Origin: Thamnidium elegans
Taxonomy: Eukaryota > Mucoromycota > Mucoromycetes > Mucorales > Mucoraceae
Length of the DNA stretch: 64,000 nucleotides
Assembly (NCBI GenBank): GCA_025201345.1
Contig: JAIXMG010000009.1
Location: 930,001 to 994,000, forward strand
Reading direction: 5' to 3'
Position 1 is the first letter of the stretch. Each line of letters starts with the position of its first letter. A model generated the notes under the pieces. That model was not told where the DNA came from, searched no databases, and was given only the letters and a program-made list of their open reading frames with translations. The translations under genes were made by a program, and so were the position numbers. Shown piece after piece: positions 26,086-31,234 of this stretch.

Positions 26086-26937
26086 ATAAGAGACACTTAA
26101 GAAAAAAAGATATAGTGAATGTAAATAGCATATCTCTTATATGAAAATACATGAGATAAGATAATAAAGACTACACACCTACACATTAATATTATAAAAT
26201 AGGCAAGTCAGATTTTTTTCCAAAAATGTAAACTTATATTGTTAACGTCAACTAGTTTTTGATACTAGGACTTGAGAAGGGTATTATTATCTTCGGAACC
26301 TTAAAGGAACTTCATGATTTATAATTACATTCCAGGAAATAGAATACATGTTTCGGGAAGCATTGATGTCTCTTTGCTATAAGGTATTGCAGGATTGATT
26401 TAAGCAATGCAATACACCAAACAAAGAAGCACTGTCGCTTCTGACATTTTCCGTATTGTTTCCAGAGAAATTGGAACAAACCTATTTTTTTTTTCTTTAA
26501 ATATGTGTTACATAGTGACCTACAACTTTTGTGGTGTCACAAATCCAAGAAGGACGCTCGTTGAAGAGGATCCTCCTTAACAAGGATTGTCTTTTTAAAA
26601 CTTTCTTAAAATAATATATTTTTGTAATAATCTAAAATAATATAAATAGCCATCAAAAAAATCACAATCTAATAAAAATCAATTCACATTTTGTAAACAA
26701 CTTTATCTTATACTTCTCTTAACTTATAAAAGATCTTTAAGTTAGCTCTTTTATTTTTGCCTTTACTTTATATTTTATTTTGCTTCTGAATTCCCTTGGA
26801 TCTTACTTTCCATTGTACTTTTTTACCAAAACCCTTTATTTTCTTTATTTACCTAAGTCGTTCTACTTATAAAACAGGAACTGGTGCTCACTTAAACTTA
26901 CTATTATCTACGGGTTTCTTAGGGACCACCGAGTTAA
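26086..26937. other. Intergenic region between TFB1 and the MULE
   Basis: No gene seen. A solo copy of the MULE terminal motif (ttcttagggaccacc) lies at about 26916-26930, just outside the element, next to its left terminal repeat. Confidence 0.5.
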
Positions 26938-27038
26938 TTCTTAGGGACCACAGGGGTGTACATAGGGTAGCTCAGGATCGGGTACCCAGTGGTCCCTAAG
27001 AAACTCCCTATGTACAACCCGGTGGTCCCTAAGAATTA
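26938..27038. repeat. MULE terminal inverted repeat, left
   Basis: Reverse complement of 30214-30314 with only a few differences. Includes gctcaggatcgggtaccc at its centre and flanking CTTAGGGACCAC motifs in both directions, so each repeat can also fold on itself. Confidence 0.85.
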
Positions 27039-27246
27039 AATAAAAAAAAAATTAAACTAAAATACTTTCAGTTGCTATCAAAGTTATTTAATCAATACCC
27101 GTTATTTTATACTACTTATACCATATTATAAGATACGTAAAAAAAATCGTTTAATGGTCATATTATTCTTCGTATTTTATTATCTTTCTTACTAACAATA
27201 TAAAAAAAATAAGGTAGATAAAATATAGTTTATTAAGAAAAAAAAA

Positions 27247-27954
27247 TTATTCTTCATCGGAAGATTCAATTACAACAAGCTCATTCTTTTGTGCATCGAA
27301 AGGCTTGCCTTCAATATGTTTGGGGAATTGCCCAAAGAGATTCCATGTTGATTTAAACAATGTTGCATAGGAATCGTCTATGTGGAAGTATATATGGCTG
27401 ACAGAAGGATATGACATACGCCTATGACCGAACTTGACAGCCACCCAGTGTGCATTTTTTATATTTTGAATGTGGTATGGCTGTACTTTTACTTTTGGTT
27501 TCGTAGGAACCCTAAGAGGCAAAGCAGTGATAGCTTCATTGAAACGGCTTTTATTTCCGGCGTCGGGATACATACATACAGGTATGTCGTACGTATCTGC
27601 AATAACTTGGACACAGCCAGGATAGTCAAACCAAATAGGCAAGCTGGTAGTATAGCTATACATGTCTGATTTGATATTCTTTTCTAGACTTACGATGTCG
27701 AAACCAAAAAATCTTGCGTATTTGTCCTTATTAGCCTCAAATGCTACGAGCATATCTTTTTTAACATCCCTATACATATCTTCATTGCCATAGTGGAGGT
27801 ACGCAATGGCTCTATAGCCGCAGTTTCCATCTCCAACAGGGTCAAATATAGCATTTACGTTTGTACAATCAATAGACCAATGTAATACTGAAAGATCCAT
27901 CTGTTTACTTTTGACCTTGCTTTCACCGAAACAACTTTTTTTTTTTAGAAACAT
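27247..27954 (-). CDS. OTU-like cysteine protease domain of the MULE
   Basis: The frame encodes about 220 residues after the poly-lysine junction. It contains FDPVGDGNCGYRAIAYLHYG, the classic OTU catalytic block (Asp, Cys of DGNC), and the distal histidine motif NIKNAHWVAVKF; both are intact. OTU proteins cleave ubiquitin chains, and in transposons the domain is occasionally captured. The frame overlaps the end of the transposase frame by 32 nt within an 11-A run (minus strand). It has no good ATG context of its own: the first in-frame ATG at 27952-27954 lies inside the upstream frame. Loss of one A, or +1 slippage, would make one protein of about 950 aa. The C-terminus is acidic (NELVVIESSDEE). 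Confidence 0.75.
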   Translation of the reverse strand: MFLKKKSCFGESKVKSKQMDLSVLHWSIDCTNVNAIFDPVGDGNCGYRAIAYLHYGNEDMYRDVKKDMLVAFEANKDKYARFFGFDIVSLEKNIKSDMYSYTTSLPIWFDYPGCVQVIADTYDIPVCMYPDAGNKSRFNEAITALPLRVPTKPKVKVQPYHIQNIKNAHWVAVKFGHRRMSYPSVSHIYFHIDDSYATLFKSTWNLFGQFPKHIEGKPFDAQKNELVVIESSDEE

Positions 27955-30130
27955 CTATAATAGATTGTTGGGCAAGTTTTCTTTTTTTACTGGCATATAA
28001 CCCCGTATTTGACATACTAATACCATTTACAAGATTCAAATCTGTATTAGGGCTAAGGTCAATTGTGTCTACGTCTTCGTCGATGCAGGTGGAAGGACCA
28101 TTCTCTGTTACAACAACCGGTTTCTTGTTTTTCTTTACTCCAGAAATTATTTTTTTGGACATTTTTATAGCTATGTGCTTACCATAAACAATTCTATTAC
28201 GTCTAAATGCCGACTTTCTCACATAATCCTTTTTGAATGAGCTTAACCTAACGGATTTTTTTGGGCGTCCAGGAGATCTAACATCATCATATTCAGGAAG
28301 ACTTAAAGGTAATTCCATTGTACAGGACGGTTCAGATTCGATGGTATTTAAAATATTATCTAGAGTACTCATCAATCGAGCTGTTTTTTTGAAATCTTGG
28401 TTGAAAGAACGAAAGACTTGCTCGACCTTTACTACGTATTTCATCCAAGGCTTTTGAGTAAGTTCAAAATTAGCATTCTGATTTTTGTAAACAGAGTCTA
28501 ATCCGTCGATCAAATCTTCTGGTGTCTCAAACCGCCATCTCGTATCGATTTCGTTTAATTTAATTGGTTTATATGCATAAAGCTGGTGACAACAAGGAAT
28601 ACCATACCAAAATCTAGATTTACAATTGCAAGGACCTTCAATATCCGAAATATCTCTTAAAAGCTCGCACCTCAAAGATATAAGAGCACGATGGGTTACT
28701 TTTCCAATCAAATACTTTAAACGGGGATCATTCGCAACTAAAACATCTACCTCATATTTTTCTTTTCTTTCGATGTCATTGTATCCTCTTTCAAAATTCT
28801 TCAAGTTAACGTGAATCGTATCAAAGGATAAATCCAAAGGCTGGAGAGAAAACATTCCTTTTTTAAGAAGTGCATGGCCACTTTCAGCTCTTTGAGTGGT
28901 TGTACATCCGAAATGTTTATATATAGATGTAATATGACCTGCCCATCTTTCAAGGTACTTCTCCCATTCGTCGTCATAATACTTAATAAACCTTCTTCGT
29001 GTCTCGTCGCTTATAAAATTAGAAGGATTAGAAAAAATAGTATCTTTTTTTTTTAATTCCAAATATGCTTCCAAGTCAGAACATTTGAACATGCCAAAGA
29101 CATTGTTTTTGAAATCATTTACAATTGAAGAAGTTTTAAATTCTTTCAATGTTGCTTGCTTGTTCATATTTTGAATCATATGCCAGGTACATAGAAGTTT
29201 ACGATTATCTGGAAAATGGATATCAAGCTGATTGATCAGAGCAACACATTTATCTGTTACAAAGATAGTGTCGGTAGTATAGCAATCATGAGCATCTTTG
29301 AGAGTTTGAACAAACCAGTCGTACATCTCCTCTTTTTCATTTACGACCCAAGCAAAAGCAATAGGGAACGTTTTTAAAGTCTCTTTGCCAATGTCGCTAA
29401 CACCGAATGCACAGATCAAAGGCATTTTTAGATTGTTTGTGTTATACGTGGCATCTATGAGTATAACCTCTGGAAATCTCTTCGCTCTTTCAAGAAGAAA
29501 GGTGTTCGTAAAAAAAAGTCCATCAAGGTTTCCGGAAATAACATTACGTCTGTGTTTAGTGATGAAACCTTGACTTTCAATATGGTTGATAAGCAGAGTT
29601 GCGCCGCTGCTAGACTTGATATCTACTCGGTTCATCATACCGTACTTTAGGTTGTTGATATCATGGATTGTCAACTTACTAAAAGAATTTCCATCACTTA
29701 ACGTCGTTTGAATTTGCTTTGATGGGGTATTTAACTCAATACAGTGTTGAAGCCTTTTAATATCATTACAATCCAATAACTCTTTTCTACCAGTACTACT
29801 AGAAAGAACATTATCCGTATCGAGTGAATGATTATGATTCTCCTCATCAGTTTTTTTAGAAGGTAAGTAATTAAACCCGCTTCCCTTATTAGTTCCCAAC
29901 CTAACATAGAAAGGGCACTTAGATCTACAGCTATTCTTCCAGCGCTTACGATCGTCTTCTGTTAAATTACGTGAATTTCGATACTCTCCACCTTTTCTAC
30001 ATTTAAGATGAATAGTTGTTGCAGAAGAACGTGCAATTACTAATTCAAAATTGTTTTCAAGAGCATAGTCTTTAAGAATGTTTACTGCAATGTCTTTTGT
30101 TGAATTTTCAGGGATAAGCGACAAAGTCAT
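27923..30130 (-). CDS. MULE transposase with FAR1-like N-terminus and SWIM zinc finger
   Basis: A single open frame of 735 aa from ATG 30128-30130 (MTLSLIPENSTKDIAVNILK). Residues about 15-110 form a FAR1/WRKY-GCM1-like DNA-binding region (IHLKCRKGGEYRN ... KCPFYVRLGTNKG ... DEENHNHSLD). The DDE core of the MULE superfamily follows: EVILIDATYNTNNLKMPLI (first Asp), DTIFVTDKCVALINQLD (second Asp) and LLCTWHMIQNMNKQA, with further conserved residues. The SWIM zinc finger is CNCKSRFWYGIPCCHQLYAY (about 530). A basic linker with GRPKKSVRLSSFKKDYVRKS (an AT-hook-like GRPKK) precedes the end in a lysine run, KKKKLFR-stop. The transposase part is fully open. Neighbouring OTU frame and terminal repeats support an element that was active recently. 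Confidence 0.88.
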   Translation of the reverse strand: MTLSLIPENSTKDIAVNILKDYALENNFELVIARSSATTIHLKCRKGGEYRNSRNLTEDDRKRWKNSCRSKCPFYVRLGTNKGSGFNYLPSKKTDEENHNHSLDTDNVLSSSTGRKELLDCNDIKRLQHCIELNTPSKQIQTTLSDGNSFSKLTIHDINNLKYGMMNRVDIKSSSGATLLINHIESQGFITKHRRNVISGNLDGLFFTNTFLLERAKRFPEVILIDATYNTNNLKMPLICAFGVSDIGKETLKTFPIAFAWVVNEKEEMYDWFVQTLKDAHDCYTTDTIFVTDKCVALINQLDIHFPDNRKLLCTWHMIQNMNKQATLKEFKTSSIVNDFKNNVFGMFKCSDLEAYLELKKKDTIFSNPSNFISDETRRRFIKYYDDEWEKYLERWAGHITSIYKHFGCTTTQRAESGHALLKKGMFSLQPLDLSFDTIHVNLKNFERGYNDIERKEKYEVDVLVANDPRLKYLIGKVTHRALISLRCELLRDISDIEGPCNCKSRFWYGIPCCHQLYAYKPIKLNEIDTRWRFETPEDLIDGLDSVYKNQNANFELTQKPWMKYVVKVEQVFRSFNQDFKKTARLMSTLDNILNTIESEPSCTMELPLSLPEYDDVRSPGRPKKSVRLSSFKKDYVRKSAFRRNRIVYGKHIAIKMSKKIISGVKKNKKPVVVTENGPSTCIDEDVDTIDLSPNTDLNLVNGISMSNTGLYASKKRKLAQQSIIDVSKKKKLFR

Positions 30131-30213
30131 TGAGATTTTAAAAAAACTTAGTACTTGTTTTATTATAATTAGAAAAGAAAGATCGTTTTATTTTGAAACA
30201 ATTTTCAGGGGAT

Positions 30214-30314
30214 TAATTCTTAGGGACCACCGGGTTGTACGTAGGGAGTTTCTTAGGGACCACTGGGTACCCGATCCTGAGCTACCCTATGTACACCCCT
30301 GTGGTCCCTAAGAA
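30214..30314. repeat. MULE terminal inverted repeat, right
   Basis: Inverted partner of 26938-27038; the outer end reads ...gtggtccctaagaa. It lies upstream of the transposase start and probably also carries its promoter. Confidence 0.85.
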
Positions 30315-31234
30315 AAACGTATTATCTATTACCTTTTATTTTATTTCTCTACCACATACCAAATTCTAACATATGGTTAATTCTTGGTACACCATCATTT
30401 ACACCACCAGTACCAATTTATGTATTATTAAAATAAAGTTAAGCAGTAACATAATCAATCCTTTTATCTTTTATTTTAAACTTATAAAACAGAAACTGGT
30501 TGTCGCTATAACTCGATTTTGAATAACATATTTTTTTAAGTACGTCACCACCTTGAGAGAAGCTTCAATATTTATTAATGTGAATAAAAAAAAACAATTA
30601 ATAACAAGGATTTTTTTACCACATTATGGAAAAATCGACGGAATTGCATTGTTTGGGATACATTTTTCTGATTCTTTGATGGTCCAGATTCAATGTAATT
30701 TTTTTATATCTCTTCAATTTACCTTTGGGTGTTCTTTTAAGTTCTACTAAATAAAAATGAGAATGAGTAAGTAAAAGCAGGATTGAATTATTGATATTTT
30801 CCATGATGTTCATTTCAACCAGTGGGAAAAAAAAACATAACGTGCATCTACTTTATAATAAACTTTTTTTTCAAAACGGTCATTTTTGGGGAATTACGAT
30901 TACGACTCCTAATATGGATATTGGCGTTTAAGGCTGTTCCCAAGTGTAATGTTGGCCGGGAATTGACAGTCTCTGGTCGGAATAAACTGACGAGAGGTAA
31001 GAATGAGACTGTACAGACGAAGGTACTCGGCAATGATAGTTTACTGTTTTAATTAATGAAAAAAGGCTCAACCTGAAAAATCGATATCTCAGGGGGTGGT
31101 GTCGTCCGGTACTTTTTACTACTACTTTGGTTTATCCTGTCTTGTACTTCTAAGAACTGATAACCTCCAAAATTTATATAAACGAAAGAAAGACTCTGTT
31201 TTTATTAATAAAGGCCTTACAGGCTATATACTAC
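30315..31234. other. Unassigned AT-rich region
   Basis: No gene or element end recognised. Short frames at 30553-30750, 30822-31052 and 31096-31431 have no coding character; the last runs into a dispersed repeat. Confidence 0.4.

Follow-up and report, generated by a model that had tools for sequence, protein, structure and literature searches.

Ginger1 is a cut-and-paste transposon with terminal inverted repeats (TIRs) that carries an OTU or a Ulp1 protease domain at the C-terminus of its transposase; it is known from Hydra, Aplysia, and the pea aphid, and the OTU-bearing members tabulated in its description are animal (PMC2836005). Here, we describe an element of similar plan from the fungus Thamnidium elegans, located in a 64,000-nucleotide stretch of contig JAIXMG010000009.1 (assembly GCA_025201345.1, positions 930,001 to 994,000 of the forward strand), which we call the window. 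It encodes a Mutator-like element (MULE) transposase and, at its 3' end, a second frame that resembles OTU proteases. Our analysis makes it probable that this is a MULE with a conserved OTU-like domain, that the two parts were ancestrally one protein, and that the break between them in the present copy came from a change in the length of an A-run.

The transposase of Ginger1 resembles a Gypsy integrase (PMC2836005), whereas that of the window is a MULE, and no integrase family was found in the window proteins by Pfam at E-values up to 1. Kaonashi and other plant MULEs with Ulp1 share with the window the combination of a MULE and a domain of the ubiquitin/SUMO-protease class, and their Ulp1 is described as strongly conserved in eudicots (PMC6117577, PMC13317346). 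The domain of Kaonashi is, however, Ulp1 (peptidase C48), whereas that of the window is OTU by profile, and neither window frame matched Ulp1/C48 in Pfam at E up to 1. The non-TIR MULEs of Arabidopsis are described with Ulp1 in one of three genes and not on the transposase (PMC6117577, PMC13317346). Helitrons and Helentrons also encode OTU-like domains with conserved catalytic residues, but they are rolling-circle elements with Rep/helicase and without a MULE transposase (PMC9741609, PMC4067079). Their VTDs have been studied as deubiquitinases (PMC9741609, PMC4067079), and transposon OTUs are said to be untested for activity (PMC9741609).

Among fungal elements, MULE-Mucorales group 5 is listed with a single open reading frame, TIRs, and SWIM, a plan similar to that of the window element, in which the SWIM motif is a candidate; it differs, by comparison of the listed values only, in a 10-bp target-site duplication (TSD) and a 40-bp TIR as against 9 bp and 102 nt (PMC6446971). 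The main text of that eukaryote-wide MULE survey nowhere uses the word OTU, and PMC7928374, where it mentions MULEs in Mucorales, names no OTU domain. Two overlapping frames over a long A-run are known from insertion sequence (IS) elements with A-run slippage (PMC1088944). In the IS elements described there, copies conserve the overlap and the shifted frame encodes a portion of the transposase, whereas half of the junctions in the window family are continuous and the shifted frame is an accessory protease (PMC1088944). No MULE-OTU element was found described among the literature matches listed, the fungal cut-and-paste survey PMC5751038 lying outside their scope; the combination is new as far as the literature search reached.

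The window element is complete, lies on the minus strand, and occupies 26911–30319; these borders were set by the TIRs and by a perfect 9-bp TSD directly outside them. Its features, in window coordinates, are as follows.

26902–26910, no strand: left copy of the TSD, TATTATCTA, an exact 9-bp repeat of 30320–30328
26911–27039, no strand: element end with TIR (core 26938–27039; 102 nt, 99% complementary to 30213–30314)
27247–27954, minus strand: OTU-like cysteine protease frame, 235 amino acids, with DGNCG and NAHW (from the frames, the profile of relatives, selection, and motifs)
27936–27946, minus strand: run of 11 A at the overlap of both frames (run lengths compared in other copies)
27923–30130, minus strand: MULE transposase (first ATG to stop codon) with an AFT-like N-terminus and a SWIM-like motif (from Pfam and motif positions)
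30213–30319, no strand: element end with TIR (core 30213–30314; inverted repeat)
30320–30328, no strand: right copy of the TSD, TATTATCTA, exact 9-bp repeat

MULEs are recognized by TIRs and a target duplication of 8–11 bp (PMC6446971), and the 102-nt repeats and 9-bp duplication found here agree with this. As features of the sequence, the intact TSD and the existence of other copies point to past movement only.

The transposase frame extends without interruption from the stop preceding 30187 to its own stop codon, 27925–27923 (754 amino acids from stop to stop), and its first ATG is at 30130. Pfam identified MULE (PF10551) with an E-value of 2.7e-20 and 73.1 bits (cut-off 27.6), followed by ZSWIM1-3_RNaseH-like (1.1e-13) and AFT (9.8e-5), the last of which we assume to be akin to FAR1. 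The motifs IDATY (29458–29444), VTDK (29260–29249), and AESGH (28888–28874) were located in this frame, and we take them to be the sites for the acidic residues of a DDE transposase. A SWIM-like CxC..CxH at 28630–28586 is presumably the zinc motif of the family; Pfam SWIM had no match in the window protein, and a weak one under the cut-off (E 0.079) in L029, a distant relative (loci and contigs of the same genome are numbered with L and C).

The second frame is shifted by +1 relative to the transposase frame and contains a Cys motif, DGNCG (27831–27817), and a His motif, NAHW (27456–27445), which we take to be the catalytic motifs of the OTU family, with Asp, Cys, and His in the corresponding roles. 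When the window protein alone was compared with PDB, viral OTU-bearing polymerase proteins, OTUD1, and OTUD5 led the matches at E-values of 0.014–0.09, and a distant relative, L033, matched one viral OTU chain at 8e-4. A profile (A1) made from the alignment of six genome copies, three close and three distant, matched OTUD5 with an E-value of 1.3e-6 over a region spanning the Cys motif to the His motif; the next matches were viral polymerase-protein OTU chains (7.6e-5 and 1.2e-4) and OTUD1 (1.5e-4). Asp42, Asn44, Cys45, Gly46, Asn167, and His169 were identical in all six aligned OTUs, and in L030 the G of DGNC was altered while D, N, and C were kept. Because the profile of the relatives recognizes OTU and the window protein alone does so only weakly, it is on this profile that we take the second frame to be an OTU-class cysteine protease. 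The initial annotation had proposed a MULE transposase and an OTU in two overlapping open frames within one pair of TIRs, the +1 frame over the A-run entering an OTU with DGNC and His motifs, and the frames, the Pfam match to MULE, the OTU profile of relatives, the TIRs, and the purifying selection on both frames described below agree with it.

The two frames overlap at the 11-A run. After the run, the transposase frame reads K-L-F-R-stop; its stop codon thus lies 10 nt past the run and not inside it, as had been supposed. Twelve junctions were compared, comprising 11 DNA-search matches that span the junction (40 of 59 candidates were scored) and L031 from a protein search; an OTU fragment (C2:205722–205973) and the junctions of distant elements were left out of this count. 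One continuous transposase-OTU frame was observed at six of the twelve: L009 with a run of 10 A, L011, L013, L016, and L020 with 9 A, and L018 with an interrupted run. Four were shifted by +1, namely the window (11 A), L012 and L019 (10 A each), and L031, and two by +2, namely L015 (through a T-run) and L021. The shift in L012 and L019 is perhaps one shared event, for which a tree of the junction region gave no resolution. The nearest relative of the window copy, L009 (97.8% identical over 1,136 bp), reads through on its 10 A.

Continuous frames are thus present both in the family of the window and in a second, well-separated family, so that a single-frame fusion is the simplest ancestor, and the ancestral gene is best read, from these sequences, as a single-frame transposase-OTU fusion. 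Sister copies with continuous frames bear out the MULE-OTU fusion that had been suggested at the outset. As to the cause of the shift, for which slippage or a gained A had been considered, a gained (or miscounted) A is favored by the six continuous junctions of twelve, the nearest among them, and slippage fails as a family rule. Continuity in all other copies, which had been named as evidence for a simple mutation, was found in part: five of the 11 others are also shifted.

The ratio of non-synonymous to synonymous divergence (dN/dS) was calculated for both parts. Between the window and the second family it was 0.20 for the OTU (L011, L012, and L021; dS about 1.0) and 0.11–0.15 for the transposase (L011, L012, and L013; dS 1.5–2.1), whereas among the second-family copies it was 1.0–2.1 for the OTU and 0.40–0.41 for the transposase. 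Since the values are low between families and high within, both parts were under purifying selection while the families diverged, single copies decaying later.

Several observations weigh against this reading. Pfam OTU (PF02338) gave no match in the window protein or in L029, L030, L009, and L011, and the best of the relatives, L033, stayed under the cut-off of 23.3 with 20 bits (E 0.0011). L029 alone matched no OTU chain in PDB at E up to 1, and a single-sequence AlphaFold model of the OTU frame had a pLDDT of 31.9. The transposase dS of 1.5–2.1 is close to saturation, dN/dS of the C-terminal OTU part between the window and a family of mini elements (L013, L022, L023, and L028; see below) was 0.32–0.34, and the value between the window and L009 was 0.65, resting on 11 changes. 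With half of the twelve junctions out of frame, slippage may still play a part. Furthermore, all six continuous-frame copies are damaged elsewhere by stops, insertions, truncation, or frameshifts; both parts are fully open in the window copy alone among the twelve, and an undamaged single-frame copy was not seen. The five shifted copies besides the window carry stops or more frameshifts elsewhere. Finally, the count of 11 A in the window copy may itself be an assembly error, the real frame being continuous; we regard this as a minority explanation that nevertheless deserves weight.

Assemblies are typically least reliable at homopolymers, and the nearest copy has 10 A where the window has 11. 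Differences of one A also exist between L012 and L019 on the one hand and L011, L013, L016, and L020 on the other, and real changes of run length are to be expected. An assembly error would be compatible with the ancestral fusion, as only the cause of the break would change.

A working slippage site, at which RNA polymerase or the ribosome slips so that OTU-less transposase and fusion are both made at any run length, seems unlikely, though it has more in its favor than the remaining alternatives. The junction run measures 7–12 A in all ten informative other copies (two of the twelve were uninformative in this comparison), whereas of six other coding A-runs of at least 7 compared with the second family, four were broken up, one was kept (28390–28384), and one was not comparable. 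This is suggestive only, the comparison being in effect a single one between two well-separated families. Each of the four +1 copies meets a stop in the shifted transposase frame no more than five codons past the run, and the window copy, which alone has both parts open, is itself shifted. In addition, bacterial IS elements slip on runs of 9 A (PMC1088944). On the other hand, no shift is needed at six of the twelve junctions, and the frame relation is not conserved, unlike in the IS cases (PMC1088944). An early stop past the run is likely in AT-rich sequence. The transposase contains 47 AAA and 21 AAG codons, and with this excess paired AAA codons are likely anyway and a stretch of Lys codons readily yields an A-run. 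The window has 31% GC and, on its plus strand, six runs of exactly 11 A and four of exactly 11 T; runs of such length being common, the 11-A run alone is not unusual. Also on this strand are T-runs of 47, 50, and 52 bases, one of each, and A-runs reaching 29. A programmed frameshift as the rule of the family was rejected on the six continuous junctions. A variant in which the run is a switch, transcription slippage and fast changes of run length during replication together toggling between OTU-less transposase and fusion, is slightly less probable still; if true, run length would tune the resistance of a copy to ubiquitin-dependent control.

Accidental capture, in which the OTU part would be a decaying fragment of a host gene, is very unlikely. 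In its favor, acquisition of host sequence by MULEs is documented (PMC6446971), and this genome has many shortened elements that retain a broken remnant of the OTU. The initial annotation had allowed for such a capture, but it is countered by the OTU dN/dS of 0.20 over a dS of about 1.0 between families, by catalytic residues that do not vary among the six aligned copies, and by the presence of OTUs in more remote elements with MULE or SWIM-like parts. The window OTU matched distant OTUs of the same genome on C10 (E 3e-15), C27 (2e-13), C8 (8e-9), and C25 (9e-8). L029 (C27) has a MULE domain (Pfam E 2e-11), then a SWIM-like part, then the OTU; by eye, the OTU also lies downstream of a SWIM-like part in L030 (C8) and L027 (C10), and L033 (C25) shares both the OTU and the linker of L030. 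Judged from such matches, a detectable OTU is not part of every MULE of the genome: among five distant MULE-region matches with 35–44% identity (C23:46326, C27:267708, C62:917092, C6:782573, and C12:185423), only C27:267708 had an OTU match within 3 kb that could be assigned to it, those 2–3 kb from C6:782573 being part of a closer copy, L016.

Short introns are common in fungi, and one over the junction could restore the frame in the window copy, but this explanation is hardly credible and was rejected by argument from the copy frames alone, since a conserved intron needs the same length modulo 3 whereas the copies differ in frame at the run, and close copies align at the junction with differences in run length only.

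At least 23 further places in the genome matched the 3' part of the OTU only (query from 2344–2360 on), with 79–85% identity. Five of the mini elements were examined, namely L022 (C5), L023 (C1), L024 (C23), L025 (C31), and L028 (C34). They are about 1 kb long, have the same TIRs, start inside the OTU without its Cys half, and share a common frameshift. The mini elements derive from internal deletion and were presumably mobilized by the full-length element; the missing Cys half and shared frameshift of the five led us to reject them as carriers of a whole OTU enzyme. Single-base codon changes among these five numbered 11 synonymous, 11 non-synonymous, and one stop, the amino-acid changes being fewer than the assumed neutral share of 0.75 (p 0.016). 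L013 (C34:1002022–1004517) is a mosaic by sequence distances, with the transposase and the start of the OTU from the second family and the C-terminal OTU from the mini-element family, suggesting recombination or conversion between elements.

Some further OTU-bearing places were noted. L030 and L033 belong to a more divergent type of element, in which a long linker rich in Lys and Glu precedes the OTU; the linker of L030 is frame-shifted relative to that of L033 at a Lys/A-rich stretch, and a Tc1/mariner-like frame was seen by eye beside L030. L032 (C64:319227–319733) and C19:71201–71772 are OTU-family places with about 50% identity and open frames of more than 200 amino acids, L032 having other sequence where the Cys-motif region would be. 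When viral contigs were scanned, the OTU gave four pattern matches and the transposase two, with no relatives among them.

Taken together, these results favor an ancestral single-frame fusion of MULE transposase and OTU, and the break in the window copy is likely an ordinary change in A-run length. We consider it more probable that this is a recent copy struck at its most mutable position than an active copy that uses slippage; the data can be explained without programmed slippage, although the run itself is conserved. In the proposed mechanism, binding of the terminal repeats and cutting would fall to the transposase part of the fusion. The OTU part is predicted to strip ubiquitin either from the transposase itself or, at the insertion site, from proteins of the host. 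The transposase might then escape degradation or silencing and live longer; alternatively, repair and integration might become easier. The deubiquitinase activity, target, and benefit of the OTU part are predictions from sequence. The window copy as it stands would make mainly OTU-less transposase.

In carrying an OTU, the window MULE would parallel Ginger1 with its OTU or Ulp1. The authors describing Ginger1 and the Helitron VTDs propose that these proteases aid transposition or shield the proteins involved in it (PMC2836005, PMC9741609), the suggested roles being DNA repair for the Ginger1 protease (PMC2836005) and avoidance of degradation for the Helitron VTD. With its OTU, this MULE would join the unrelated transposons that carry a protease of the ubiquitin/SUMO class, namely Ginger1, Helitrons, and plant MULEs. 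An element that is compact and has both parts under selection would lend itself well to testing the activity of a transposon OTU.

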